DNA from: Microscillaceae bacterium
GTDB taxonomy: Bacteria; Bacteroidota; Bacteroidia; Cytophagales; Microscillaceae
Direction: 5' to 3'
Length of the DNA: 64,000 nucleotides
Assembly (NCBI GenBank): GCA_011390205.1
Contig: JAABSX010000003.1
Coordinates: 1 to 64,000, forward strand
In this document: positions 1,498 to 23,730 of the stretch, piece by piece
How the letters are laid out: each line of letters starts with the position of its first letter
Numbering within the stretch: the first letter of the stretch is position 1
Made by a program: the position numbers and the translations under genes
Notes under the pieces: generated by a model
Database searches by the model: none
Told to the model about the DNA's origin: nothing
What the model saw: the letters and a program-made list of their open reading frames with translations, nothing else

Positions 1498-4400
1498 ATG
1501 AACACTTTACAAAGCGTTGTCATCAACGAAGAAATTTTTTATAAAATCCCAAACGCACATTCAATGCGTCCTTTTTTTATGAGCATCGTGAGCAATTCTA
1601 ATCACTGGCTCTTCGTCTCTAGCAATGGAGGCATCAGTGCAGGAAGAAAAAACTCGGAGTTTGCCTTATTCCCTTACTATACTGATGACAAAATAACCGA
1701 CACCGCAGAAGTTACGGGAAGTAAGACCATTCTTCGCATCTCTAAAAATGGCAAAGTAACCGTATGGGAGCCTTTCTCAATTCGCAGTGAGGGTCATTTC
1801 TCCATTAGTAGAAATATATACCAAAACCGCTTTGGCAACAAAGTCATTTTTGAAGAAATCAACCACGACATTGAGGTAAGTTTTCAATATGAATGGAACT
1901 CAAGCAACCTCTATGGCTTCGTAAAACAATCCAAATTAGTCAATGCTTCTAGCGAAAAATTAGAAATAGAATTTATAGATGGCTTGCAAAATATCATGCC
2001 CTACGGTGTACCAAGTGATTTGCAGACCAGCACAAGCAACCTTGCCGATGCCTACAAACGCAGCGAGTTAGTACCCGAAACAGGACTGGGATTGTTTGCT
2101 CTGAGTGCCATCATTGTCGACAAAGCCGAACCCAGCGAAGCCCTCAAAGCCAATGTAGCATGGAGCTTGGGTATAGAAAATCCCACTTACTTCCTTTCTT
2201 CTTTGCAACTCCAAAAATTCAGAAAAGGAGAAAAAATTAACCAAGAAGAAGACATCAAAGGTGAAAAAGGAGCTTACTTTGTAGCAGGCAAAGCTACACT
2301 CGAGGCAGGACAGGAAAAATACTGGCTCACCGTAGCCAATGTGAATCAAACCCAATCTGCCGTAGTTGCCCTCAATGAGGAAATCAAAAACAACCAACAA
2401 TTAAGGGATAAAGTCCTCCAAAATATCCAAGAAGGCACAGTGCATCTGACTGAGCTAAACGCCAGTGCCGATGCTTTGCAATACACTGCTGATGAGCTAA
2501 AAGATACAAGGCACTTCTCTAACGTACTTTTCAACATCATGCGAGGAGGAATTTTTGATAATAATTATCAAATCGAAAAACAAGATTTTGAAACGTATCT
2601 CCGAAAAGCCAATAAACAGGTTTTCGAACTGGCACAAGCCTCATTAAAAACATTGCCTACCACATTTTCGCTTTTTGAACTCAAAGACATTCTAGACAAA
2701 ATTCCTACTTCAGGTGTGGGGGGGCTTGATTTTACACGTTTAGCAACAGAGTATCTACCCCTGAAATTTAGCCGAAGACACGGCGACCCAAGCCGCCCTT
2801 GGAATCAGTTTTCTATCAATACCCACAGCGAAATAGATGGCTCAAAAATCTTAGATTATCAAGGAAACTGGCGTGATATATTTCAAAACTGGGAGGCATT
2901 GGTACACGCTTATCCTGGCTTTATCGAAGGCATGATTTATCGCTTTCTAAATGCTTCTACCTTTGATGGCTACAACCCTTACCGTGTTACCAAAGATGGC
3001 TTTGATTGGGAAACCATCGAGCCTGACAACCCTTGGTCTTATATTGGCTACTGGGGCGACCACCAAATTATCTATCTCTTGAAGTTTTTAGAATTTGCCG
3101 AGCAAAAAGAGGCTGGAATGATTGAAAAACTCTTAGGTAAAAATGATTTTGTCTATGCCAATGTGCCTTATCAAATCAAGCCCTATGCTGAGATTGTAAA
3201 AAACTCGAAAGATACCATCGTATTTGACGACAAGAGCGAAGAACAAATACAACAACGCATCAAAACCATGGGGGCTGACGGGGCTTTGCTCATCAATCAA
3301 GCCAATGAAATACACCGTGTAAACTTTGCCGAAAAAATCCTAGCTACCTTGCTTAGTAAGTTATCTAACTTTATTCCCGAAGGCGGTATTTGGATGAATA
3401 CCCAAAGGCCCGAATGGAATGACGCCAACAATGCCCTCGTAGGCAATGGCGTATCTATGGTTACGCTGTATTATCTGAGAAGATTTTTGAACTTTTTTCA
3501 ACCCATTTTGCAACAATCAAGCACTCAAAACTTGGAAGTTTCCGCAGAACTGCAAACGTTTTTTGCTCAAATACTAGAAATTTTTACAAAACACAAGTCG
3601 GTACTTTCTGCCTCTATCAATGATGCCCAAAGAAAACAAATCACCGATGCCCTAGGCAATGCTGCTAGTCAATACAGAAGCCAGATTTATAAAGATAGTT
3701 TTGCGGGTGAGAAGAAAACAATTTCTACAAAAGATGTATCTACCTTGGTAGAAACTGCACTTGAATTTTTAGAACATTCTATCAAAGCTAACAGAAGAGA
3801 AGATTACCTGTACCATGCCTATAACCTGATGAGCTACGAAGAAAAGGGTATCAAAATCACGTATCTGAGCGAAATGCTAGAAGGGCAAGTGGCTGTGCTG
3901 AGTGCGGGTTACCTATCGGCTGAGGAAAGTCTCAAAGTGCTGGATGCTTTGCGTAGCAGTGCACTCTACCGAGCAGACCAAAACAGTTATATCTTATACC
4001 CCAATAAAAATCTACTCGGGTTTTTACAAAAAAATAATATCCCCAAAGCACTTTTTGAAAGCTCCAAATTACTCACAAAACTCTTAGAAGAAGGCAATAA
4101 TAGCATCGCTGAAAAAGATGTAAAAGGAAACTTTCACTTCAACGGAAATTTCAAAAATGCAGGTGATTTGAGTCAAGGAATAGAGGAATTGGCAGAAAAA
4201 CACCAATCTTTAGCAGCCACTGACAAAGCTTTGGTGCTTAGCATTTTTGAGAAAGTATTTAATCACAAAGAATTTACGGGCAGGTCAGGTACTTTCTATG
4301 GCTATGAAGGCTTGGGCTCTATTTACTGGCACATGGTTTCTAAATTGCTCCTCGCAGTGCAAGAAACTTGCTTGCAAGCCATTGCCCAAAACGCCGACAA

Positions 4401-4944
4401 AGCCACTGTCCAGCAATTAATTGACCACTATTACCAAGTCAATGACGGGATTGGTGTGCATAAATCGCCTGAAGTCTATGGTGCTTTTCCTATTACGCCT
4501 TATTCTCATACGCCTCTTGGCAAAGGAGCACAGCAGCCAGGCATGACGGGGCAAGTGAAAGAAGATATTTTGAGCCGATGGGGTGAGCTGGGTGTCTTTG
4601 CTAAAGATGGGAAACTGCATTTTGAGCCAACACTGTTACGAAAAGAAGAATTTTTACCAAAAGAAAAATCTGTGGTTTTGTTTGATGTGAATGGTAAAAA
4701 ACAGGAAATCATCATCCCTCAAAATGCCCTCTGTTTTACAATTTGTAAAGTACCCGTAATTTATGAAATGGCTGATAGCGAAAGTATTGAAGTTTTTGAT
4801 GACAAGCAATCTTCAAAGAAATACGAGCAGTCATTCCTAAATAAAGAGGATTCCGAAAATGTGTTTAGACGCAACGGAAAAGTTAGCTTGATAAAGGTGA
4901 GAAGCCCCCTACCCCAAAGAGGAGAATACACAAAAAATATATAA
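1498..4944 (+). CDS. Beta-1,3-glucan (oligo)phosphorylase-like enzyme, GH149/GH161 type
   Basis: A 1148-residue protein with no signal peptide, so cytoplasmic. It starts at ATG 1498. The segment WLFVSSNGGISAGRKNSEFALFPY near residues 38-60 (N-terminal beta domain) and the motif PEWNDANNALVGNG around residues 639-652 match the pattern of the GH94-like phosphorylase clan. By analogy with the WND motif of cellobiose phosphorylases, D642 is the likely general acid. The length fits GH149 and GH161 rather than GH94 (about 800). Those families reversibly cleave beta-1,3-oligoglucans with phosphate, giving glucose 1-phosphate, which saves ATP. The neighbours (GH17, GH30, sugar symporter) support this substrate. 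The last 15 residues (VRSPLPQRGEYTKNI) are encoded by a degenerate copy of the local GC-rich repeat and are probably not native. Family assignment is by motif and length; choosing between GH149 and GH161 needs a profile search. Confidence 0.8.
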   Translation: MNTLQSVVINEEIFYKIPNAHSMRPFFMSIVSNSNHWLFVSSNGGISAGRKNSEFALFPYYTDDKITDTAEVTGSKTILRISKNGKVTVWEPFSIRSEGHFSISRNIYQNRFGNKVIFEEINHDIEVSFQYEWNSSNLYGFVKQSKLVNASSEKLEIEFIDGLQNIMPYGVPSDLQTSTSNLADAYKRSELVPETGLGLFALSAIIVDKAEPSEALKANVAWSLGIENPTYFLSSLQLQKFRKGEKINQEEDIKGEKGAYFVAGKATLEAGQEKYWLTVANVNQTQSAVVALNEEIKNNQQLRDKVLQNIQEGTVHLTELNASADALQYTADELKDTRHFSNVLFNIMRGGIFDNNYQIEKQDFETYLRKANKQVFELAQASLKTLPTTFSLFELKDILDKIPTSGVGGLDFTRLATEYLPLKFSRRHGDPSRPWNQFSINTHSEIDGSKILDYQGNWRDIFQNWEALVHAYPGFIEGMIYRFLNASTFDGYNPYRVTKDGFDWETIEPDNPWSYIGYWGDHQIIYLLKFLEFAEQKEAGMIEKLLGKNDFVYANVPYQIKPYAEIVKNSKDTIVFDDKSEEQIQQRIKTMGADGALLINQANEIHRVNFAEKILATLLSKLSNFIPEGGIWMNTQRPEWNDANNALVGNGVSMVTLYYLRRFLNFFQPILQQSSTQNLEVSAELQTFFAQILEIFTKHKSVLSASINDAQRKQITDALGNAASQYRSQIYKDSFAGEKKTISTKDVSTLVETALEFLEHSIKANRREDYLYHAYNLMSYEEKGIKITYLSEMLEGQVAVLSAGYLSAEESLKVLDALRSSALYRADQNSYILYPNKNLLGFLQKNNIPKALFESSKLLTKLLEEGNNSIAEKDVKGNFHFNGNFKNAGDLSQGIEELAEKHQSLAATDKALVLSIFEKVFNHKEFTGRSGTFYGYEGLGSIYWHMVSKLLLAVQETCLQAIAQNADKATVQQLIDHYYQVNDGIGVHKSPEVYGAFPITPYSHTPLGKGAQQPGMTGQVKEDILSRWGELGVFAKDGKLHFEPTLLRKEEFLPKEKSVVLFDVNGKKQEIIIPQNALCFTICKVPVIYEMADSESIEVFDDKQSSKKYEQSFLNKEDSENVFRRNGKVSLIKVRSPLPQRGEYTKNI

Positions 4945-4985: not shown

Positions 4986-6299
4986 ATGAAAAATGCTGTA
5001 AAATTCCCCCTTTGGGGGTTAGGGGGCTGCCCTTTGGGGGTTAGGGGGCTTTCAGGAGTCTTGTTCCTATTTTTAACTATTATTATCTTTCAGTCTTGCA
5101 ATACTATGAATCAAACAAGAAAAAATATGACCGCTGCACAAATATTAGGAAATTCTGCGTACACTGCCATCTCTTATGGGGGATACCGTACCCAGAGCCG
5201 AAGGGTGCAGCCTACCGTTGCCCAACTCAAAGAAGACCTCAAAACACTTTCAGCCATGGGCATCAGAATCGTCAGAACGTACAACGTGCATTTGCCACAC
5301 GCCATCAATGTAGTAAAGGCAATCAGTGAGCTAAACAAAGAACAGCTTGACTTTGAAATGTATGTGATGCTAGGGGCTTGGATTGACTGCAAAAATGCTT
5401 GGACAGGCTTCGAGCCCAATCACTACGAAGAGAGTGAAAGAAATGCTACAGAAATAGCACACGCTGTAGAGCTGGCTCAAAAGTATCCCGAAATTATCAA
5501 AATTATTGCCGTAGGCAATGAAGCCATGGTCAAATGGGCTGCCGACTATTATGTCCAGCCCTACACTATTTTAAAATGGGTAAACCATCTGCAAGAGTTA
5601 AAGAAAAAAGGTGAATTGTCTAAAGATTTATGGATTACAAGTTCTGATAATTTTGCCTCTTGGGGAGGTGGTGATGCTGAGTACCATGTGGAAGATTTAA
5701 ACAAACTCATCAAAGCTGTTGATTATATTTCTATGCACACTTACCCTATGCACGATACGCATTACCATCCTGTTTTTTGGGGTATAAATGAAGAGGAAAG
5801 TGGCAAATCAAAAGAAGCACAGATAGACTTGGCAATGGAGCGCTCTGTACGCTACGCCAAATCACAATACGAATCAGTCAAAAAATACATGCAAAGCCTT
5901 GAGGTAGAAAAACCCATTCATATTGGCGAAACAGGCTGGGCAAGCGCTGCCAACGAACTCTATGGAAATGAAGGCTCAAAAGCTACTGATGAGTACAAAT
6001 CAGGACTTTTCTATAAAAAAATGAGAGAGTGGACAGATAAAGAAGGCATTGCTTGCTTCTATTTTGAGGCATTTGATGAGATATGGAAAGATGCCGCCAA
6101 TCCTGGAGGCTCTGAAAATCACTTCGGGCTTTTTACTCTTGAGGGCAAAGCAAAATGGGCTATTTGGGATTTGGTGGATAAAGGTGTTTTCAAAAATCTA
6201 ACAAGAGATGGAAATCCTATCCAAAAAACATACAATGGGGATTTTAAAAAACTCCTAAATGAGGTGGAAAGCCCACCAGTAAAAACCCCAGCCCCCTAA
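4986..6299 (+). CDS. GH17 beta-1,3-glucanase, lipoprotein
   Basis: A 437-residue GH17 glycosidase. The likely acid/base is E179 in AVGNEAM and the nucleophile is E315 in HIGETGWAS. The 136-residue spacing is like that of classical endo-beta-1,3-glucanases. A hydrophobic stretch (residues 25-36) followed by FQSC makes C38 a lipid-anchor candidate, so it probably works on the periplasmic face or cell surface. The N-terminal residues 7-23 (PLWGLGGCPLGVRGLSG region) are encoded by two tandem copies of the GC-rich repeat, giving an odd n-region without the usual lysines. The last residues (SPPVKTPAP) also run into the next repeat. ATG 4986 is the only ATG before the hydrophobic segment. It lies 41 bp after the phosphorylase, so the two are probably co-transcribed. 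The enzyme would shorten laminarin-type chains before uptake. Confidence 0.88.
   Translation: MKNAVKFPLWGLGGCPLGVRGLSGVLFLFLTIIIFQSCNTMNQTRKNMTAAQILGNSAYTAISYGGYRTQSRRVQPTVAQLKEDLKTLSAMGIRIVRTYNVHLPHAINVVKAISELNKEQLDFEMYVMLGAWIDCKNAWTGFEPNHYEESERNATEIAHAVELAQKYPEIIKIIAVGNEAMVKWAADYYVQPYTILKWVNHLQELKKKGELSKDLWITSSDNFASWGGGDAEYHVEDLNKLIKAVDYISMHTYPMHDTHYHPVFWGINEEESGKSKEAQIDLAMERSVRYAKSQYESVKKYMQSLEVEKPIHIGETGWASAANELYGNEGSKATDEYKSGLFYKKMREWTDKEGIACFYFEAFDEIWKDAANPGGSENHFGLFTLEGKAKWAIWDLVDKGVFKNLTRDGNPIQKTYNGDFKKLLNEVESPPVKTPAP
5006..5050. repeat. Tandem GC-rich repeat arm inside the GH17 signal-peptide region
   Basis: Two identical 21-nt units (5008-5028 and 5030-5050), each CCCTTTGGGGGTTAGGG plus GGCT, sit in tandem with a 22-nt period. 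They correspond to the right arm of the intergenic repeat. Because 22 is not a multiple of 3, the two units are read in different frames in the GH17 protein. Confidence 0.9.
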
Positions 6300-6521: not shown

Positions 6522-8045
6522 ATGAAATGCACAATGAAACTAAAAATTACAGCACTTGCAACATTAAACCTTCTGATGATGAACTGTCAATCTCCTCAAC
6601 AACAAGAAAAAGAAAGCAAAGAAAACAAAAACTTGGCAGTAGAAATTTATGAAACTTCGGCAAAGGGCAATAAACTGACTAAAATTGAAGAACGCTCTGC
6701 CTCCGATAGTGCCATTAAAATTATTCTAAGGCCTGAAGAAAAATTCCAGAAAATTACAGGTTTTGGAGGGTCTTTTACGGAAAGTTCTGCCTATCTGCTC
6801 AACAAATTAGGCAAAGAAAACCGTGAAAAAATCTTACAAGCTTATTTTGGAGAAGAGGGTGCCAATTATTCGCTCACTCGCACACATATCAACTCTTGTG
6901 ATTTCTCTTTGAGCAACTACTCTTATACACCTACCCCCGACGAAGAACTGAAAGACTTCAGCATCAAAGAGGATATGGATGACTTGATACCTATGATAAA
7001 AGATGCCCAAAAAATCTCAAAAGAGGGCTTTAAAATTGTTTCTTCGCCTTGGACTGCCCCACCTTGGATGAAAGACAACAACAATTGGGTAGGTGGAAAA
7101 CTTCTCCCAAAATACAATGAAGCCTGGGCTTTGTTTTATGCCAAATACCTCAGCGAATACAAAAAGCAAGGCATTGATATCTGGGGGATTACCGTAATCA
7201 ATGAACCACACGGAAACGGAAACAACTGGGAAAGCATGCTCTTCTCGCCCAAAGAAATGACTGACTTCGTGCAAGACTTCTTAGGCCCAAGACTAGAAAA
7301 AGAAGGCTATGAACATATCAAAATACTAGGCTATGATCAAAACCGAGCTGGGCTACAAGAGTGGGTAGATGAAATGTTTCGTGATGAAAAATCTTCCAAA
7401 TATTTTGCTGGCACAGCCATCCACTGGTATGAAAGCACCTATGATTATTTTCCTGATGCCCTGCAATATGCCCACAAAAAAGCCCCTGAAAAACACCTCA
7501 TCCAAACCGAGGCCTGTGTAGATGCCGAAGTACCCAAATGGCAAGACGATGACTGGTACTGGAGCAAAGAAGCCACCGACTGGGGCTGGGACTGGGCCGC
7601 AGAAGAAGAAAAATACCTACACCCCAAATATGTGCCTACTTACCGATATGCCCGAGACATCATTGGCTGCCTCAATAACCACGTAGATGGCTGGATAGAC
7701 TGGAATATGGTGCTAGACACAAAAGGCGGACCCAACTGGTTCAAAAACTGGTGCGTGGCGCCCGTCATTGTCGACCCCGACAAAGACGAAGTGTATTTTA
7801 CACCTTTGTATTATGTGATGGCACATTTCAGTAAATTTATTCGCCCTGATGCTGTGCGTATAGGTTTTGAAAATCCTGATAAAGATTTGATGGCTACTGC
7901 CGCCCAAAATCCTGACGGATCTATTGCCGTGGTGCTGCTCAATCAAAGCGAGAAAGTCCAAAATATTAGCCTACAACTTGGCGAAAAAAAGGTGAATTTC
8001 AGCATAGATGCCAAGGCAGTACAAACCCTAGTAATCAATCCTTAA
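6522..8045 (+). CDS. GH30 family beta-glucanase/beta-glucosidase, lipoprotein
   Basis: A 507-residue GH30 enzyme. Motifs in order: GFGGSFTESSAYLL (residues 84-97, start of the catalytic barrel), SPWTAPPWMK, VINEPHG with acid/base E228, QTEACVD with nucleophile E330, and a C-terminal beta domain ending in NP. The N-terminus has a hydrophobic segment and LLMMNC, so C22 is a lipidation site (C18 if translation starts at the second ATG, 6534). GH30 members in beta-1,3-glucan clusters of marine Bacteroidota remove beta-1,6-linked glucose branches from laminarin. That role is inferred here from context; GH30 also includes glucosylceramidases and other activities. It lies 38 bp upstream of the transporter-GH17 fusion with no repeat between, so those two are tightly linked. 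Confidence 0.85.
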   Translation: MKCTMKLKITALATLNLLMMNCQSPQQQEKESKENKNLAVEIYETSAKGNKLTKIEERSASDSAIKIILRPEEKFQKITGFGGSFTESSAYLLNKLGKENREKILQAYFGEEGANYSLTRTHINSCDFSLSNYSYTPTPDEELKDFSIKEDMDDLIPMIKDAQKISKEGFKIVSSPWTAPPWMKDNNNWVGGKLLPKYNEAWALFYAKYLSEYKKQGIDIWGITVINEPHGNGNNWESMLFSPKEMTDFVQDFLGPRLEKEGYEHIKILGYDQNRAGLQEWVDEMFRDEKSSKYFAGTAIHWYESTYDYFPDALQYAHKKAPEKHLIQTEACVDAEVPKWQDDDWYWSKEATDWGWDWAAEEEKYLHPKYVPTYRYARDIIGCLNNHVDGWIDWNMVLDTKGGPNWFKNWCVAPVIVDPDKDEVYFTPLYYVMAHFSKFIRPDAVRIGFENPDKDLMATAAQNPDGSIAVVLLNQSEKVQNISLQLGEKKVNFSIDAKAVQTLVINP

Positions 8046-8083: not shown

Positions 8084-10459
8084 ATGGAAACAACTACAAT
8101 GAGTGAAAATGGCAAAGTTCCCTTCGGGCAAAAAGTAGCTTTTGGTTTAGGAATGTTAGCGAACCAAATGTTCCCTGCTATCCTTGGGATATTTATGGTT
8201 GTCTTAATCCAAAATCTGGGCTTCCCAGGCTGGATGTTGGGCATTATTTATTTTTTACCAAGGGTTTTTGACTCACTCACTGACCCCATTATGGGCTTTA
8301 TCTCCGACAATACCAAATCAAGATGGGGGCGTAGGCGGCAGTATGTTTTCATAGGAGCAATCATTATGGGGCTTGCCTTTATAGTGATGTGGCAGCTTTA
8401 CAAAGAAGATGGCGTACAGTACAACTTCATGTATTTCTTGCTTTGGTCTTTTGTGTTTTATTTAGGGCTGACCATTTTCAGTGTCCCTTATGTGGCAATG
8501 GGCTACGAAATGAGCAACGATTTCCACGAGCGTACCAACATTATGGCAATTTCCCAATGGATAGGACAGTGGGCTTGGGTCATTGCACCTTGGTTTTGGG
8601 TAATTATGTATGACCCCACATGGTTTCCGACTGCCGAAGCAGCTACACGGCAACTGGCTTTTTGGGTGGGGATTACGTGTATGTTATTTGCGATGGTGCC
8701 TGCCATTTTTATCAAAAGCAAATCCACCCTCCATGAAGATTATTCTCCTTTAAATATCAGAACCATTGGAAGCAGCCTGAAAGAAATCTTAGCAGGTTTT
8801 AAAGAGGCTTTTCAATCAACCCCCTTCAGAAAACTCTGTATTGCTACTTTCTTTATTTTCAATGCTTTTAATACTGTTGCCGCTTTTTCTTTCTTTATTG
8901 TAGTGCATTATCTGTTCCGTGGAAATGCTGAAGAAGCAGGTATTTGGATACCTCTTTTTGGGAGTTTGGGCGCATTGGTAACTACTTTTGCAGTGATTCC
9001 AGTTGTAGCAAGAATGTCTAAGACAATGGGCAAGAAAAAAGCCTTTCTCGTATCCCAAGGCATTTCAATCATTGGCTATATCTTGCTGTGGTTCTTATTT
9101 ATCCCAGGTAAGCCCTATATGTTTATTTTTGCTTTGCCTTTCTTTTCTTTTGGGATTGGTAGTTTATTTACCCTGATGATGTCTATGACCTCTGATGTGA
9201 TAGATTTAGATGAACTCAACACAGGCAAGCGCAGAGAAGGTGTTTTTGGTGCGATTTATTGGTGGATGGTGAAGTTTGGGCTGGCCATTGCAGGGGCTTT
9301 GAGTGGGATTATCCTTGATGTAGTTGGATTCAATGCAGCCATTAGCCCACAGCCTGAGGCTACCCTCATTGGTTTGAGGGCCTTTTACTCAGGAGTGCCC
9401 ATCATAGGCACACTGATTGCCATTGCGATTATGTGGAATTATAACCTAGATGAAGCACGTGCCAGAGAGATTAGTGCCGAATTAGAAAAGCGAAAAGCCA
9501 AGCCAACACCTACAGGTTCTTCATCTTATCGTACTAAGTTGGGCTTACTTACCAGCAATTACTTGGCTTTTGACAGTACCGTAACCACTGATTTTTCTCA
9601 CAAAAGTGAAGAAGAAATCCAATCTATCTTTGCACAGTCTCTGGTAAGTCAAGTACACGGGCTTTGCTTTAGTCCTTACATGGAAAACCAAACCATTGGG
9701 GATATTCTCAGCGAGGCACAAATCCGACGAAGAATGAAAATCATTCAGCCTTACACCCAATGGGTGCGTTCATTTTCTTGCACCGAAGGCAATGAACACA
9801 TCCCTAAAATAGCCCACGAACACGGACTAAAAACCATCGCAGGGGCTTGGATAAGCAATGACAGAGCAAACAACGAGCAAGAAATCAATAACTTGATAGC
9901 GCTTGCCAAAGCAGGACAGGTGGACATTGCGGCAGTAGGCAATGAAGTATTGCTCAGGGGAGAGCTCTCAAAAGATGAATTAATTGGCTACATCAAACGA
10001 GTCAAAGAAGCCCTGCCCAACATGCCTGTGGGCTGTGTAGATACTTATTATCAATTTAGCGAACACCCCGAACTGGTAGAAGCTTGTGATGTGATTCTGG
10101 CGAATTGCTATCCTTTCTGGGAAGGTTATGACATTAGAGAAGCCTCCGCTTATTTGCAAAAAATGTATGCCTTTGTAGAGCAAGCTGCCAAGAATAAAAA
10201 AATAATCATCACCGAAACGGGCTGGCCAAGCCAAGGTAATCCTAATAACCAAGCTGTACCTTCTAAACCCAACGTAATGAAGTACTTCATTGACCTTAAT
10301 AACTGGAGTAAGAAGAAAAACATAGAAGTATTCTACTTCTCTTCTTTTGATGAGGCTTGGAAAGTACACCATGAGGGAGATGTAGGGCAACGCTGGGGTC
10401 TATGGGATAAATTCGAGAAGCCAAAATATACAGAAGAAAAAAAATCACTACTTAAATAA
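8084..10459 (+). CDS. GPH/MFS sugar symporter fused to a C-terminal GH17 glucanase domain
   Basis: A single 791-residue open frame with two parts. Residues 1 to about 465 are a 12-helix glycoside-pentoside-hexuronide:cation symporter. It carries the family signature FDSLTDPIMGFISDNTKSRW and then GRRR after helix 2. After a charged linker (about 466-500, AELEKRKAKPTPTGSSS) comes a GH17 domain (about 500-790) with VGNEVLL (acid/base E621) and ITETGWPS (nucleophile E711). A 12-helix carrier has both termini in the cytoplasm, so the glycosidase should sit at the cytoplasmic mouth of the transporter. The GH17 part is closely similar to the free GH17 protein encoded next (shared HGLCFSPY, RSFSCT, CDVILxNCYPFWEG, FYFSSFDE). 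Inferred role: import of beta-1,3-gluco-oligosaccharides coupled to hydrolysis or transglycosylation, feeding the phosphorylase. The start could be ATG 8084 or 8099. Confidence 0.92.
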   Translation: METTTMSENGKVPFGQKVAFGLGMLANQMFPAILGIFMVVLIQNLGFPGWMLGIIYFLPRVFDSLTDPIMGFISDNTKSRWGRRRQYVFIGAIIMGLAFIVMWQLYKEDGVQYNFMYFLLWSFVFYLGLTIFSVPYVAMGYEMSNDFHERTNIMAISQWIGQWAWVIAPWFWVIMYDPTWFPTAEAATRQLAFWVGITCMLFAMVPAIFIKSKSTLHEDYSPLNIRTIGSSLKEILAGFKEAFQSTPFRKLCIATFFIFNAFNTVAAFSFFIVVHYLFRGNAEEAGIWIPLFGSLGALVTTFAVIPVVARMSKTMGKKKAFLVSQGISIIGYILLWFLFIPGKPYMFIFALPFFSFGIGSLFTLMMSMTSDVIDLDELNTGKRREGVFGAIYWWMVKFGLAIAGALSGIILDVVGFNAAISPQPEATLIGLRAFYSGVPIIGTLIAIAIMWNYNLDEARAREISAELEKRKAKPTPTGSSSYRTKLGLLTSNYLAFDSTVTTDFSHKSEEEIQSIFAQSLVSQVHGLCFSPYMENQTIGDILSEAQIRRRMKIIQPYTQWVRSFSCTEGNEHIPKIAHEHGLKTIAGAWISNDRANNEQEINNLIALAKAGQVDIAAVGNEVLLRGELSKDELIGYIKRVKEALPNMPVGCVDTYYQFSEHPELVEACDVILANCYPFWEGYDIREASAYLQKMYAFVEQAAKNKKIIITETGWPSQGNPNNQAVPSKPNVMKYFIDLNNWSKKKNIEVFYFSSFDEAWKVHHEGDVGQRWGLWDKFEKPKYTEEKKSLLK

Positions 10460-10597: not shown

Positions 10598-11485
10598 ATG
10601 TCATTTAGAAACGCAAAAGTGATGCACCTTACGGGAGTACATCACAAAGATTTAAGTGAAAAGGCGCTGGTCGACCTTTACAACGAAACACTCCAAGCGG
10701 GCATGCATGGCTTGTGTTTTAGCCCTTATGAAGAAGGGCAAAAACCTGGAGACCAGCTTTCTGAGGAACAGATTCAACGGAGGATGCAAGTTATCAAGCC
10801 TTACACAAAGTGGATACGCTCCTTTTCGTGTACGGATGGCAACGAGCTAATCCCCAAAATTGCTAAAGAACATGGCCTAAAAACACTGGTAGGGGCTTGG
10901 CTTGGTGATGACCCCGAAATCAACCAACGTGAAATAGAAGGACTGATTCGTATTGCAAACGAAGGGCTCGTAGATGTTGCAGCAGTGGGCAATGAAGTGA
11001 TGTACCGCAAAGACCTCACCGAAGAGGAGCTGCTAGAGTTTATCTACAAAGTAAAAGAGGCCTTGCCTAGTGATATTCCCGTGGGCTATGTAGATGCTTA
11101 CTATGAATTTGCCCACCGACCCAAAATCACAGAGGCTTGTGATGTCATTCTTTCCAACTGCTACCCCTTCTGGGAAGGCTGCCATTGTGAGTATTCTCTG
11201 CCATACATGAAAGACATGTATCACCAAGCACTGCATGCAGGCAATGGTAAGAAAGTAATCATCACCGAGACAGGCTGGCCTAGCCAAGGCACGAGCTTAC
11301 AGGGAGCTGAACCTTCTGATGCCAATTTTATGAAATACTTCATCAATACCCAGCGATGGTCTAAGGAAGAAGGTATAGAAATCTTTTACTTCTCTTCTTT
11401 TGATGAATCTTGGAAAGTAGGTGCAGAAGGCGACGTAGGGGCTTATTGGGGTATTTGGGACAAAGAAGAAGACCTGAAATACTAA
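10598..11485 (+). CDS. Cytoplasmic GH17 glycosidase (short form)
   Basis: A 295-residue GH17 protein with no signal peptide or membrane segment, starting at ATG 10598. Catalytic candidates are E133 in AVGNEVMY and E224 in ITETGWPS, 91 residues apart, the same short spacing as in the preceding fusion domain (90) and unlike the lipoprotein GH17 (136). It is a paralogue of that fusion domain over its whole length, so one probably arose by duplication. The short GH17 branch includes microbial endo-glucanases and glucanosyltransferases. It would act on oligosaccharides already inside the cell, alongside the phosphorylase. It is the last gene of the cluster and is followed by a strong hairpin. Confidence 0.87.
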   Translation: MSFRNAKVMHLTGVHHKDLSEKALVDLYNETLQAGMHGLCFSPYEEGQKPGDQLSEEQIQRRMQVIKPYTKWIRSFSCTDGNELIPKIAKEHGLKTLVGAWLGDDPEINQREIEGLIRIANEGLVDVAAVGNEVMYRKDLTEEELLEFIYKVKEALPSDIPVGYVDAYYEFAHRPKITEACDVILSNCYPFWEGCHCEYSLPYMKDMYHQALHAGNGKKVIITETGWPSQGTSLQGAEPSDANFMKYFINTQRWSKEEGIEIFYFSSFDESWKVGAEGDVGAYWGIWDKEEDLKY

Positions 11486-16322: not shown

Positions 16323-16874
16323 ATGAAAGACCTCGTAAGACTTAAAACATCTCTCAGTGAAGAGATTGAAAATATCCTCAATGAACAAGTAAAAATAGAA
16401 GGTGTATCTTCTTCTAAATACCTCGCCATGGCATCTTGGTGTGGGGAGCATGGCTTCGAGAATAGCGAAGCATTTTTTATGAATCAATCAGAGGAAGAAC
16501 GCAAGCATATGCTCAAAATATTCAAATACATAGCTGATGTAGGCGGCAAACCCTTCTCACCTGAAGTAAGTAACCTAAACCACGAGTTTGGCTCACTCCG
16601 TGAAGTATTTGAGACTGCCCTGGAGCAAGAAATCGGTGTAACCCGTGCCATTCACCGCATTGTAGAGGCTTGCCGTAAAGCCAATGATTATACTACTGAG
16701 CAGTTTATGCAGTGGTTTATCCAAGAGCAAATAGAAGAAGAATACATCGCACGCCGTATTGTAGAGCTTTTTGATGTGATTGGTGAAGACACTCCTGGCG
16801 GATTGTATATGATAGACAATGCCATTACGAAGGTAACCTATGCTGGAGGGGTAGCCGCAGAAAGTGCTGCTTAG
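16323..16874 (+). CDS. Ferritin (non-heme)
   Basis: A 183-residue ferritin-like four-helix bundle. Ferroxidase residues are visible: E26 and Y33 on the first helix (EGVSSSKYLAMA), E59 and H62 on the second (SEEERKHMLKIF), and glutamates on the third and fourth helices (ALEQEIGVTRAI; FIQEQIEEEYIARRIVEL). The length is in the normal range for bacterial ferritins; no Met ligand pattern of bacterioferritin is seen. It oxidises Fe(II) and stores iron in a 24-subunit cytoplasmic shell. It starts at ATG 16323 after an AT-rich leader, and a strong terminator follows, so it is probably a single-gene unit. No Fur box was identified by eye. Confidence 0.92.
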   Translation: MKDLVRLKTSLSEEIENILNEQVKIEGVSSSKYLAMASWCGEHGFENSEAFFMNQSEEERKHMLKIFKYIADVGGKPFSPEVSNLNHEFGSLREVFETALEQEIGVTRAIHRIVEACRKANDYTTEQFMQWFIQEQIEEEYIARRIVELFDVIGEDTPGGLYMIDNAITKVTYAGGVAAESAA

Positions 16875-19722: not shown

Positions 19723-22700
19723 ATGATGCTAAAATTAATTTATCGTAGCTTGATAGTGTTCAGCTATCTGCTTTATTTTGCACCTGTTCACTTGCAGGCA
19801 CAGGATGCACTTTGGCAGCCCGTAGGCAGTGTAGAATCCAAAAATCTAGGAAAATCACAGATTGACACGAAAGCAGGAAATTTACAAAAGATAGACTTAG
19901 CATCACTCAAAGCATCTCTTCAGGGTATCCCCTCTGGAAAAGCATTTGAGGCAAAATATACCAATACGCTCATTCAACTCCCGATGCCCAATGGTGAACT
20001 AATGCCCTTTAGAGTGATTGAATCTTCCATTTTATCCCCTGAGCTTGCCAAGAAGCTGCCCCAAGTCCGTACTTATGCAGGGGAGGCTCTCCATGATGCC
20101 CGCATCCATGCACGCATGGACATTACGCAGCATGGCTTTCACGCCATTATCTTCAGACCCGAAGGCACAGTCTATATAGACCCCTACCAAAAAGGAAATA
20201 CTACGCACTACCTTGTCTATTGGAAAAAAGATTTTGTCAGTAGCCAAAAGAATACCCTGAATGAGGGCTGCCAAGTAGAGAACAAAAACCAAAAAAACCA
20301 TCATCAAGAAGAAAGCAATGCTACAAACGCACAAGTGAAAAGTGGGATAGCTGCCCGCCCCTCTGGCACAGAACTGCGCACTTACAGACTTGCCGTAGCC
20401 GCCACTGGAGAGTACACACAGTTTCACAATGATGGCAATGCAAGCAATGGCACGGCCGTGGAAGATGCGCAGGCAGCAATCATCACTACTTTTAACAGAG
20501 TTACAGGGATTTATGAAAAAGAAGTCGCTGTTTCGTTTATCTTAGTGGATAACTCCTCAATAGTATTTGAAGATGGACCTACTGACCCTTTCAGCAACAA
20601 CAATGCAGGCATGCTGATTAATCAAAGCCAAGATGTCATAGACAGCAATATTGGGTTTAATAATTACGACATAGGGCATACCGTCAGCACTGGAGGCGGT
20701 GGTTTGGCTGGGCTAGGGGTGGTTTGTACTAGTAGCAAGGCTAGAGGAATTACAGGCTCAGGGCAGCCCATCGGAGACCCCTATGATGTGGATTATGTAG
20801 CCCACGAAGTGGGGCATCAGTTTGGAGGGCCTCATACTTTTAATGGGAATACTGGTGCTTGTGTCGGAGGAAATCGCTCAGGAGACTCCGCGTATGAGCC
20901 TGGCAGTGGCACCACGATTATGGCATATGCAGGCATTTGTAACCCTCAAAATATCCAGAACAACAGCGATGATTATTTTCACACACAAAGTTTTGATGCC
21001 ATTCTCAATCATACCCTAAATGGTGCGGGTAATAACTGCCCTGCTACCAACAACACGGGCAACACTCCCCCTGTGGTGAGTGTGCCAGCAAGTGGCTTTA
21101 CGATTCCGATTAATACACCTTTTGCACTCACGGGTTCGGCAAGTGATGCCGATGGGGATGCGATCAGCTATGCCTGGGAGCAGTTTGATTTAGGCCCGAC
21201 AGGTGCACCTGATAGCCCAAGTGGCAATGCACCTATTTTTCGTTCTTTTCGTGCTGTGGAGAGCCCCACACGTACCTTTCCACGCTTAGAAGACATCATC
21301 AACAATGCCCAGACTATAGGGGAGATTTTGCCAAGTTATACAAGAAATCTTCATTTTAGACTCACAGCCAGGGATAATCAAGCCGTTGGAGGGGTAAATT
21401 ATGCCTCTATGAGCTTCAATGTAAGCAATACTGCGGGCCCTTTTTTGGTAACTGCTCCCAACACAGCCCTCACTTGGGAAGCAGGAAGCAGCCAAAAGAT
21501 TACTTGGGAGGTAGCCAATACTGACAAAGCCCCCGTGAACTGCCAAAAGGTCAATATTTTACTTTCTTTGGATGGTGGCTTTACCTACCCGATTACGCTG
21601 GCAAGTGATGTAGCAAACAGTGGTGCACATTGGATAGCAGTCCCGAACCAAGCTACCAGCCAAGCACGCATCAAGATAGAAGCAGCCGACAATGTGTTTT
21701 TTGATATTTCTAACCAAAATTTTACCATCAATGCAGCTTCTGCACCTACATTTACACTGGTGGCAAACCCTGCAAGGGCATTGTCTTGTGCCCCTGCAGG
21801 TGTAAGCTATGAGATTTTTATAGGAAGTATTCTAGGTTTTGCAGATGCCGTTACGCTTTCTACTGATAATCTTCCAAGTGCTTTGAATGCCAGTTTTGCG
21901 CAGAATCCTCTTGTACCCGAAGGCAGCACTACACTGACACTCAGCAATACGGCGGCACTCAGCACAGGCAATTATTCTTTCAGTATCGTGGCTGTATCGG
22001 GTGCTACCACAAGGAGTATTTTGGTCAATCTTGTGCTGGTCAATGGAAACCCAGAGGTGGCAGTACTACATACCCCTGCCAATACTGCTGTAGATGTATC
22101 AATAAATACACTCTTTAATTGGACGGATGCTGAGGGCAGTGCTTCATATTTGTTAGAAGTGGCTACAGATGTTAATTTCACGAATATTGTTCTTCAAGAA
22201 ATTATCTTCAGTAGTAGTTTTGAACCCAATACTCCCTTAGCATCTAACACAATGTACTACTGGAGAGTCCGTACTAATAACCCATGTGGAGGTTTTAGTC
22301 AGAGTGAGGTAGCAAGTTTTACCACTTTTAATTCTACTTGTATTACTTATACAGGCACTGACCTACCGATTGCTATTTCTGATGGTTCACCCAATACAAT
22401 TAATTCTATTATCAATATCACAGATAATTTTCAGATTATAGACGTAAACTTGATAAATATCTCGGGTACGCATACTTGGATTAGTGACCTTACTTTTACC
22501 TTGATAAGCCCAAGTGGCACAGAGGTTATCTTGATGGCACAGCCTTGTGAAGACGAAGAAAACTTCAACATCGGTTTTGATGATGAGGCATTGAGCGCAG
22601 ATTATCCTTGCCCTCCCGTTGATGGAAATACTTACAAAGCTTTTGAAAATTTAGCTGTATTCATAGGTGAAAACAGTGCGGGTAACTGGACGCTCAGAGT

Positions 22701-23730
22701 CAGTGATGGATTAAATTTTGACGGGGGCAGTCTAGATAGCTGGACACTGGAGCTCTGTAGTGCAGAAGATGGCAACACAGCTCCCCTCATCACCCAAAAC
22801 CAAAGACTCCTCCGCTCTCCTGGTGCGGAAAGTTACACTCTAAGCAATACACAACTACAAGCCACAGATGCCGAAGATGAGGATGGTAGCCTTATATATG
22901 TCATAGAGCAAACACCTATTCGGGGTAGCCTCAAACGAAATAATCAGACACTAGAAGTAGGAAGTGTATTCACACAATCAGAGCTAAACAATGCCCAGAT
23001 TAGCTATCACCCCAATACTACAAATGCTTCTCAGAATGATAGTTTTAGATTTAGGGTGCGTGATAGCGGCAATCTTAGCACAGCATCTAATACTTTTAAT
23101 ATTTCACTTGACTACCCTCCCGTACTGATTATCAATGAGCCACTGATAGATATTCCTGTGCGAAATAGATACCTCATTACGCAAGCTCTCCTTAAGGCAA
23201 GTGATGCAGAAGACAATAGTAATTTACTCAATTATGTCATTACACAAGTACCACAGCAGGGCATACTGAGCGTACAGAGTTTTGAGGTGTTTCAAGGAAA
23301 TGCTTTTTCTCAGAATAGCATCAATAGTGCTGCCGTAGCTTATGTGCCTAATTTATCAGAAAATAGCACGCAGGATAGTTTTAAGTTTAGGCTCAGAGAT
23401 TCGGCAGGAAATGAGACCGAAGAGTTTACTTTTATCATCAATATTGATATTGTCAATAACCTGAGTAGCAATCTTTTGCAAGCAGGTACACAGGTATCTC
23501 CTAACCCAAGTGAAGGTGTTTTTAAGGTAGATTTAGATTTCCCTTACCAAGGCAATATCAGTCTGGATGTTCTCTCTGTAGAAGGCAAGCTATTGAAAGA
23601 ACTAAGCATTGAGAAGACGACCATCAGCACAGCAATTAGTCTTGATTTGAGTTATTTGGCAGCAGGGGTTTATTTTCTAAGAATCCGAAGCAGTGAAGCA
23701 ATCAGCACCAAACGCCTGATGAAAAAATAA
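19723..23730 (+). CDS. Secreted reprolysin-like zinc metalloprotease with P domain, cadherin-like repeats and T9SS tail
   Basis: A 1335-residue multidomain protein. Signal peptide about 1-27. A propeptide-like region lies about 30-205 (HARIHARMDITQHGFHAII). The catalytic domain, about 215-445, contains HEVGHQFGGPH with zinc ligands H361, H365 and H371 and catalytic E362, plus a Met-turn-like IMAYAGIC. Ig/fibronectin-like modules follow, then a proprotein-convertase P domain (about 875-1020: WISDLTFTLISPSGTEVILM...NWTLRVSD...LDSWTLELC). Next are two related repeats beginning with ITQNQRLL and IINEPLIDIPV (each with LxASDAED-like motifs, CSPG/cadherin-like). The last about 85 residues (VSPNPSEGVFKVDL...AAGVYFLRI) are a type A T9SS sorting domain. 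It is exported by the Por system and anchored or released as a protease. It starts at one of the adjacent ATGs 19723 and 19726. Confidence 0.92.
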   Translation: MMLKLIYRSLIVFSYLLYFAPVHLQAQDALWQPVGSVESKNLGKSQIDTKAGNLQKIDLASLKASLQGIPSGKAFEAKYTNTLIQLPMPNGELMPFRVIESSILSPELAKKLPQVRTYAGEALHDARIHARMDITQHGFHAIIFRPEGTVYIDPYQKGNTTHYLVYWKKDFVSSQKNTLNEGCQVENKNQKNHHQEESNATNAQVKSGIAARPSGTELRTYRLAVAATGEYTQFHNDGNASNGTAVEDAQAAIITTFNRVTGIYEKEVAVSFILVDNSSIVFEDGPTDPFSNNNAGMLINQSQDVIDSNIGFNNYDIGHTVSTGGGGLAGLGVVCTSSKARGITGSGQPIGDPYDVDYVAHEVGHQFGGPHTFNGNTGACVGGNRSGDSAYEPGSGTTIMAYAGICNPQNIQNNSDDYFHTQSFDAILNHTLNGAGNNCPATNNTGNTPPVVSVPASGFTIPINTPFALTGSASDADGDAISYAWEQFDLGPTGAPDSPSGNAPIFRSFRAVESPTRTFPRLEDIINNAQTIGEILPSYTRNLHFRLTARDNQAVGGVNYASMSFNVSNTAGPFLVTAPNTALTWEAGSSQKITWEVANTDKAPVNCQKVNILLSLDGGFTYPITLASDVANSGAHWIAVPNQATSQARIKIEAADNVFFDISNQNFTINAASAPTFTLVANPARALSCAPAGVSYEIFIGSILGFADAVTLSTDNLPSALNASFAQNPLVPEGSTTLTLSNTAALSTGNYSFSIVAVSGATTRSILVNLVLVNGNPEVAVLHTPANTAVDVSINTLFNWTDAEGSASYLLEVATDVNFTNIVLQEIIFSSSFEPNTPLASNTMYYWRVRTNNPCGGFSQSEVASFTTFNSTCITYTGTDLPIAISDGSPNTINSIINITDNFQIIDVNLINISGTHTWISDLTFTLISPSGTEVILMAQPCEDEENFNIGFDDEALSADYPCPPVDGNTYKAFENLAVFIGENSAGNWTLRVSDGLNFDGGSLDSWTLELCSAEDGNTAPLITQNQRLLRSPGAESYTLSNTQLQATDAEDEDGSLIYVIEQTPIRGSLKRNNQTLEVGSVFTQSELNNAQISYHPNTTNASQNDSFRFRVRDSGNLSTASNTFNISLDYPPVLIINEPLIDIPVRNRYLITQALLKASDAEDNSNLLNYVITQVPQQGILSVQSFEVFQGNAFSQNSINSAAVAYVPNLSENSTQDSFKFRLRDSAGNETEEFTFIINIDIVNNLSSNLLQAGTQVSPNPSEGVFKVDLDFPYQGNISLDVLSVEGKLLKELSIEKTTISTAISLDLSYLAAGVYFLRIRSSEAISTKRLMKK

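Follow-up and report, generated by a model that had tools for sequence, protein, structure and literature searches.

The window analysed here is a stretch of 64,000 nucleotides from a draft genome of a Microscillaceae bacterium (G000; 124 contigs). Its first base is also the first base of the contig, so that regulators and any upstream SusCD pair fall beyond the contig. A GH149 gene is followed by genes for a GH17A lipoprotein, a GH30 lipoprotein, a fused symporter-GH17 protein and a free GH17 enzyme, in this order (Table 1). The fused gene is the only one of its kind in the source genome. No Rfam or tRNA features were found in the 64,000-nucleotide window. Inspection by eye revealed two further proteins: a ferritin-like one at 16323-16874 and, at 19723-23730, a large secreted one that resembles metalloproteases and bears a sorting-type tail at its C-terminus.

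Table 1. Features of the fused gene and its neighbourhood (positions within the window)
Feature	Position	Strand	Basis
CBM_4_9 domain protein, near contig start	48..1328	+	Pfam match
GH149 beta-1,3-glucan phosphorylase, no signal peptide	1498..4944	+	NF058639, 1741 bits (curated cut-off 1150)
GH17A-like laminarinase, hydrophobic N-terminus with Cys, lipoprotein-like	4986..6299	+	Pfam; N-terminus
GH30 enzyme, lipoprotein-like N-terminus	6522..8045	+	Pfam; N-terminus; beta-1,6-glucosidase expected from FbGH30 (PMC6246565, excerpts)
Fused GPH symporter-GH17 protein (P0001), 791 aa	8084..10459	+	ATG start, single unbroken frame; domain and fold matches
Symporter domain, residues 15-455, 12 TM helices, N-in/C-in	8126..9448	+	MFS_2; MelB alignment (16-467); fold; charge bias
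D63 and D67, aligned with MelB cation-site D55 and D59	8270..8284	+	Alignment; invariant in 85 homologues; MelB D55C/D59C entries among fold matches
Flexible linker, residues 473-487, lysine/arginine-rich	9500..9544	+	pLDDT <50; K+R 6.8 in residues 451-480
GH17 TIM barrel, residues 509-783	9608..10432	+	Pfam; RmBgt17A alignment; AlphaFold; fold comparison
E621, acid/base (Glu133 of MlGH17B)	9944..9946	+	Alignment; invariant in 85 fused homologues
L624, position of acceptor-platform Tyr136 (MlGH17B)/Tyr102 (RmBgt17A)	9953..9955	+	Alignment
E711, nucleophile (Glu233 of MlGH17B)	10214..10216	+	Alignment; invariant in 85 fused homologues
Free GH17 sister enzyme, 295 aa, no signal peptide	10598..11485	+	Pfam; 57% identical to fused domain
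Tyr136 codon of free GH17	11003..11005	+	

A preliminary description of this DNA had placed a symporter and a GH17 domain in one uninterrupted frame and had proposed a domain search. Both domains were indeed matched within the single protein of 791 codons: residues 20-457 by Pfam MFS_2 (E 1e-66; 225.7 bits, cut-off 27) and residues 690-783 by Glyco_hydro_17 (E 3.6e-12; 47 bits, cut-off 28.2). The TIGR00792 'gph' model matched residues 17-470 with 200.8 bits, below its curated cut-off of 231.35. Having passed MFS_2 widely and missed the TIGR00792 cut-off, the symporter domain is, on profile scores, a divergent GPH relative. Its best solved sequence relative was MelB, aligned over about residues 16-473, and residues 548-768 of the GH17 part aligned to Rhizomucor RmBgt17A (PDB 4wtp/4wtr; E 5e-33). 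An AlphaFold model built from 85 fused homologues (mean pLDDT 83) comprised 12 long transmembrane helices, an amphipathic helix at 457-472, a disordered linker at 473-487 and a TIM barrel; Foldseek matched this model to MelB (TMt 0.84) and RmBgt17A (TMt 0.86). The barrel and the two catalytic glutamates, E621 and E711, are those expected of a GH17 enzyme, and the glutamates, described earlier as kept, were invariant in all 85 fused homologues. In two close pairs, dN/dS of the GH17 part was 0.04-0.12.

The transporter part has the features of a MelB-type GPH carrier: 12 transmembrane helices, N-terminus and C-terminus inside, and the helix II cation-site aspartates. It shares its fold and these aspartates with MelB (PDB 4m64, 7l16, 8t60); however, identity to MelB is 16-17%, and the positions of MelB D19 and D124 are Q28 and S133 here. 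Because of these two replacements, a sugar other than that of MelB is expected. By analogy with MelB, the carrier would perform cation-coupled uptake of beta-1,3-gluco-oligosaccharides. When the N-in 12-helix topology was applied to more than 80 fused homologues, inside loops (161 residues) held a mean of 31.3 lysines and arginines, and outside loops (80 residues) a mean of 3.9. No signal peptide was detected in the fused protein. Because of the 12 helices, the lack of a signal peptide and the positive-inside charge bias, a cytoplasmic position of the GH17 domain, as proposed earlier, is well supported by the predicted topology; the free sister enzyme is likewise signal-less.

About 85 homologues keep the fused frame. 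To survey it we used samples of 241 genomes of the same order and 395 genomes of the phylum, which are free of similarity-selection bias, and 80 named loci from a species-level genome collection, which were picked by similarity to the fused protein and therefore over-represent fusions. Full fusions (frames of 782-809 aa, 65-85% identity) were present in 12 of the 241 order genomes, all 12 of which also have the free copy, and the phylum-wide sample contributed further fusions. Among the named loci, 74 of 80 carried the fusion; they belong to Cytophagales, Flavobacteriia, Saprospirae, Chitinophagaceae and Balneolaceae, with one Burkholderiaceae MAG. The closest named relative is a Microscillaceae MAG (85% identity). 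At least six lineages have lost the fused GH17 domain: they hold the same transporter without it and retain just the free enzyme. The fusion on the contig binned as Burkholderiaceae (L130/L139) was the only one among the 398 genomes that were sampled in its phylum, and reflects either horizontal transfer or a binning error.

The preliminary description knew of no characterised example of such a protein. A precedent exists: FbGH17B (FORMB_24740, AOR29491.1) of Formosa sp. Hel1_33_131 was named and assayed in 2018 as an N-terminal 12-TM MFS domain with a C-terminal GH17 domain (PMC6246565). Its GH17 part released glucose from debranched laminarin and hydrolysed oligosaccharides in vitro, and Unfried et al. 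proposed a coupling of hydrolysis and uptake (PMC6246565). A metagenome study of 2023 recorded the same fusion in most of the expressed 'variant 1' laminarin PULs of Bacteroidota among bloom bacteria, and also in the Gammaproteobacteria SAR92, Luminiphilus and SAR86 (PMC10108472). As far as its excerpts show, that study offers a census remark and does not analyse topology, residues or paralogues. We defined an FbGH17B-type fusion by a GPH/MFS_2 domain followed by GH17 in one frame, a laminarin locus, and exo-acting hydrolysis of laminari-oligosaccharides. The present protein has the two domains in this order in one frame, and its surroundings hold the genes of such a locus (GH17A, GH30 or GH3, and GH149). 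FbGH17B shares with it the 12-TM MFS and GH17 parts, a place in a laminarin locus that also holds GH17A, GH30 and GH149, and a residue other than Tyr at the acceptor site; however, this residue is Met there and Leu here, and Formosa belongs to another bacterial class than the Microscillaceae-like genome. A Formosa MAG relative (L083), compared in place of FbGH17B itself, was 67% identical and has Met at the acceptor site. The architecture is thus already known, and the Microscillaceae protein is a further FbGH17B-type fusion.

The order GH149-GH17A-(GH30)-fusion-free GH17 is conserved. Across the 80 loci, GH149 was found in 67, a GH17A-like gene in 73, GH30 in 52 and free GH17 in 72. The stretch of GH30 is taken by a GH3 gene in those Cecembia and Polaribacter loci that were checked. 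The free GH17 gene directly adjoins the fusion in 66 of the 74 fused loci; in four of the eight exceptions it lies on another contig. The excerpts of the Formosa paper (PMC6246565) contained no discussion of the free sister copy, and our literature search found no published account of the fusion and the free GH17 in tandem. The counterpart of the free copy is MlGH17B (WIW39500.1) of Muricauda lutaonensis, a 295-aa GH17 enzyme beside an MFS gene, with the Tyr/Trp/Glu triad and no reported signal peptide (PMC11005184, PMC13188888). Muricauda, however, encodes the MFS transporter in a gene of its own, and one GH17 of this kind has been described there.

The two copies in tandem differ at the acceptor site. 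FbGH17B has Met at this position and is hydrolytic, MlGH17B has Tyr and is transglycosylating, and the Tyr102Ala variant of RmBgt17A loses transglycosylation (PMC11005184). The closest solved GH17 fold (30% identity) is that of the fungal transglycosylase RmBgt17A from Rhizomucor miehei. Its acceptor triad is Tyr102/Trp157/Glu158; the fused domain departs from it by Leu624 in place of the tyrosine and keeps W679 and E680. The triad is complete in the free copy (motifs NEVMYR and NCYPFWEG). Among 93 fused domains the acceptor position was Leu in 67, Met in 15, Tyr in 5, and His, Gln and Phe in 2 each; among 100 free copies it was Tyr in 91 and Leu in 9. Other fused/free differences near the aglycone subsites are Gln657 for Glu170, His762-His763 for Gly275-Ala276, and Arg770 for Tyr283.

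In the tree, fused and free GH17 domains formed two separate clades. The two copies are, as judged from alignment and tree, ancient paralogues with diverged acceptor subsites. Five changes of the acceptor residue were counted on the tree, and no more than two independent fused/free pairs. Four unfused proteobacterial GH17 copies (L148-L151), whose genomes hold separate MFS genes, have Leu at this position. A general rule that fused domains lack Tyr is weakened by the one or two independent pairs, the five fused domains with Tyr and the Leu of the unfused proteobacterial copies. Because the splits are few and ancient and Leu occurs in these unfused copies, the residue does not seem to be dictated by fusion itself; on this phylogeny, it is a marker of enzyme lineages within Bacteroidota. 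In a free tree search, a small number of fused domains with Tyr or Phe branched off basally, but a single fused clade was not rejected (p-AU 0.586).

Some loci have other arrangements. In L045 (514-2976, - strand) a Tyr-bearing free-type GH17 is joined to the transporter and the fused-type domain is gone. The beginning of an enzyme of the free type (MSFREERF...) can still be recognised in its linker, and L045 is, by this trace, an independent later fusion. L051 (277-2856) and L052 (1504-4002) carry a fused-type GH17 on a different transporter lineage, about 48% identical. Branch values favour joining to a second transporter lineage, the AU test was not significant (p-AU 0.182), and the two cases would represent either a swapped domain or a second fusion. 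In 17 loci, e.g. L061 (9298-10239), L097 (9296-10231) and L122 (7982-8932), the neighbourhood of the free copy also holds a third, distant GH17 paralogue (motifs GNEACVD and HTYPVWEY).

From the activities associated with Met in FbGH17B, Tyr in MlGH17B and Tyr102Ala in RmBgt17A, we infer that the fused copy is hydrolase-like and the free one transferase-like; the tandem arrangement suggests that the two split the work. We consider it probable, with some reserve, that the genes form a 'variant 1' laminarin locus in which GH149 is fed by two enzymes, one a hydrolase tethered to the membrane at the exit of the importer and the other a soluble transglycosylase. In such a locus, the lipoproteins GH17A and GH30 would trim laminarin in the periplasm, and the GPH symporter, to judge from its MelB homology, would bring in beta-1,3-gluco-oligosaccharides with a cation. 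The tethered cytoplasmic GH17 domain would then hydrolyse arriving oligosaccharides near the carrier exit, as the activity of FbGH17B suggests. The free GH17 would rearrange oligosaccharides as a soluble beta-1,3-glucanosyltransferase, consistent with MlGH17B and the conserved Tyr/Trp/Glu residues. Finally, the GH149 phosphorylase would convert the chains to glucose-1-phosphate; GH149 enzymes use acceptors of DP>=1, down to glucose (PMC6484121). As to the processing of beta-1,3-gluco-oligosaccharides suggested in the preliminary description, synteny with GH149, the GH17A lipoprotein and GH30 upholds the outline; its 'vectorial' element, in which each sugar is cut on emergence from the carrier, is conjectural. 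We found no measurement of hydrolysis-transport coupling. The predicted disorder of the linker argues against strict channelling; proximity of the enzyme to the carrier may speed product clearance. A more specific version is tentative: a two-speed cytosolic module, in which the tethered hydrolase would have lost acceptor binding and the free enzyme would lengthen short imports for GH149 in the manner of MalQ. In maltose use, MalQ rebuilds chains for MalP.

Division of work between the copies has to be weighed against the rival view that the two are functionally equivalent, with a second copy that provides dosage alone and with Leu/Tyr reflecting neutral drift in old clades. Trp and Glu of the triad are kept in both copies, Leu occurs in some free copies and Tyr in some fused ones, proteobacterial single copies have Leu, and the lineages that dropped the fused domain manage with the free enzyme alone. 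However, several classes retain the two copies next to each other, several clade-specific differences cluster at the aglycone side, and FbGH17B and MlGH17B are reported to differ in activity; we regard equivalence of the copies as unlikely. It is less likely still that the fused GH17 serves as a tether or allosteric part which raises transporter turnover by product removal and contributes little hydrolytic flux relative to GH149. The flexible linker, the coupling suggested by Unfried et al. and the genomes with the same transporter lineage but no GH17 domain fit such a role, but the invariant catalytic glutamates and subsite residues, the purifying selection on the domain and the in vitro hydrolysis of oligosaccharides by the FbGH17B domain speak for a working enzyme.

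A periplasmic GH17 domain that feeds the transporter from outside would agree with the other GH17 enzymes of laminarin loci, which are periplasmic lipoproteins, and with the Formosa paper, which in its excerpts treats periplasmic degradation and does not fix the side of FbGH17B (PMC6246565). This placement is very improbable and in practice ruled out by charge bias and helix count: the protein has 12 helices with the N-terminus inside, a strong positive-inside bias and a K/R-rich linker, and it lacks a signal peptide, as do the free sister enzyme and MlGH17B. That the joined frame arose by sequencing or assembly error could be imagined for a contig of a 124-contig draft; its probability is negligible, since dozens of independent genomes, some of them from isolates, carry the same fusion. 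The preliminary description had named a stop or frameshift between about residues 460 and 500 as fatal to the fusion; the recurrence of the joined frame across many genomes, at 63-85% identity, refutes this possibility.

Laminarin is a major algal storage sugar, and an enzyme tied to its importer may shape the competition of Bacteroidota for laminarin. The tandem of a tethered hydrolase-like copy and a free transferase-like copy, present in the same genome and directed at the same substrate, provides a natural comparison for the benefit of tethering.
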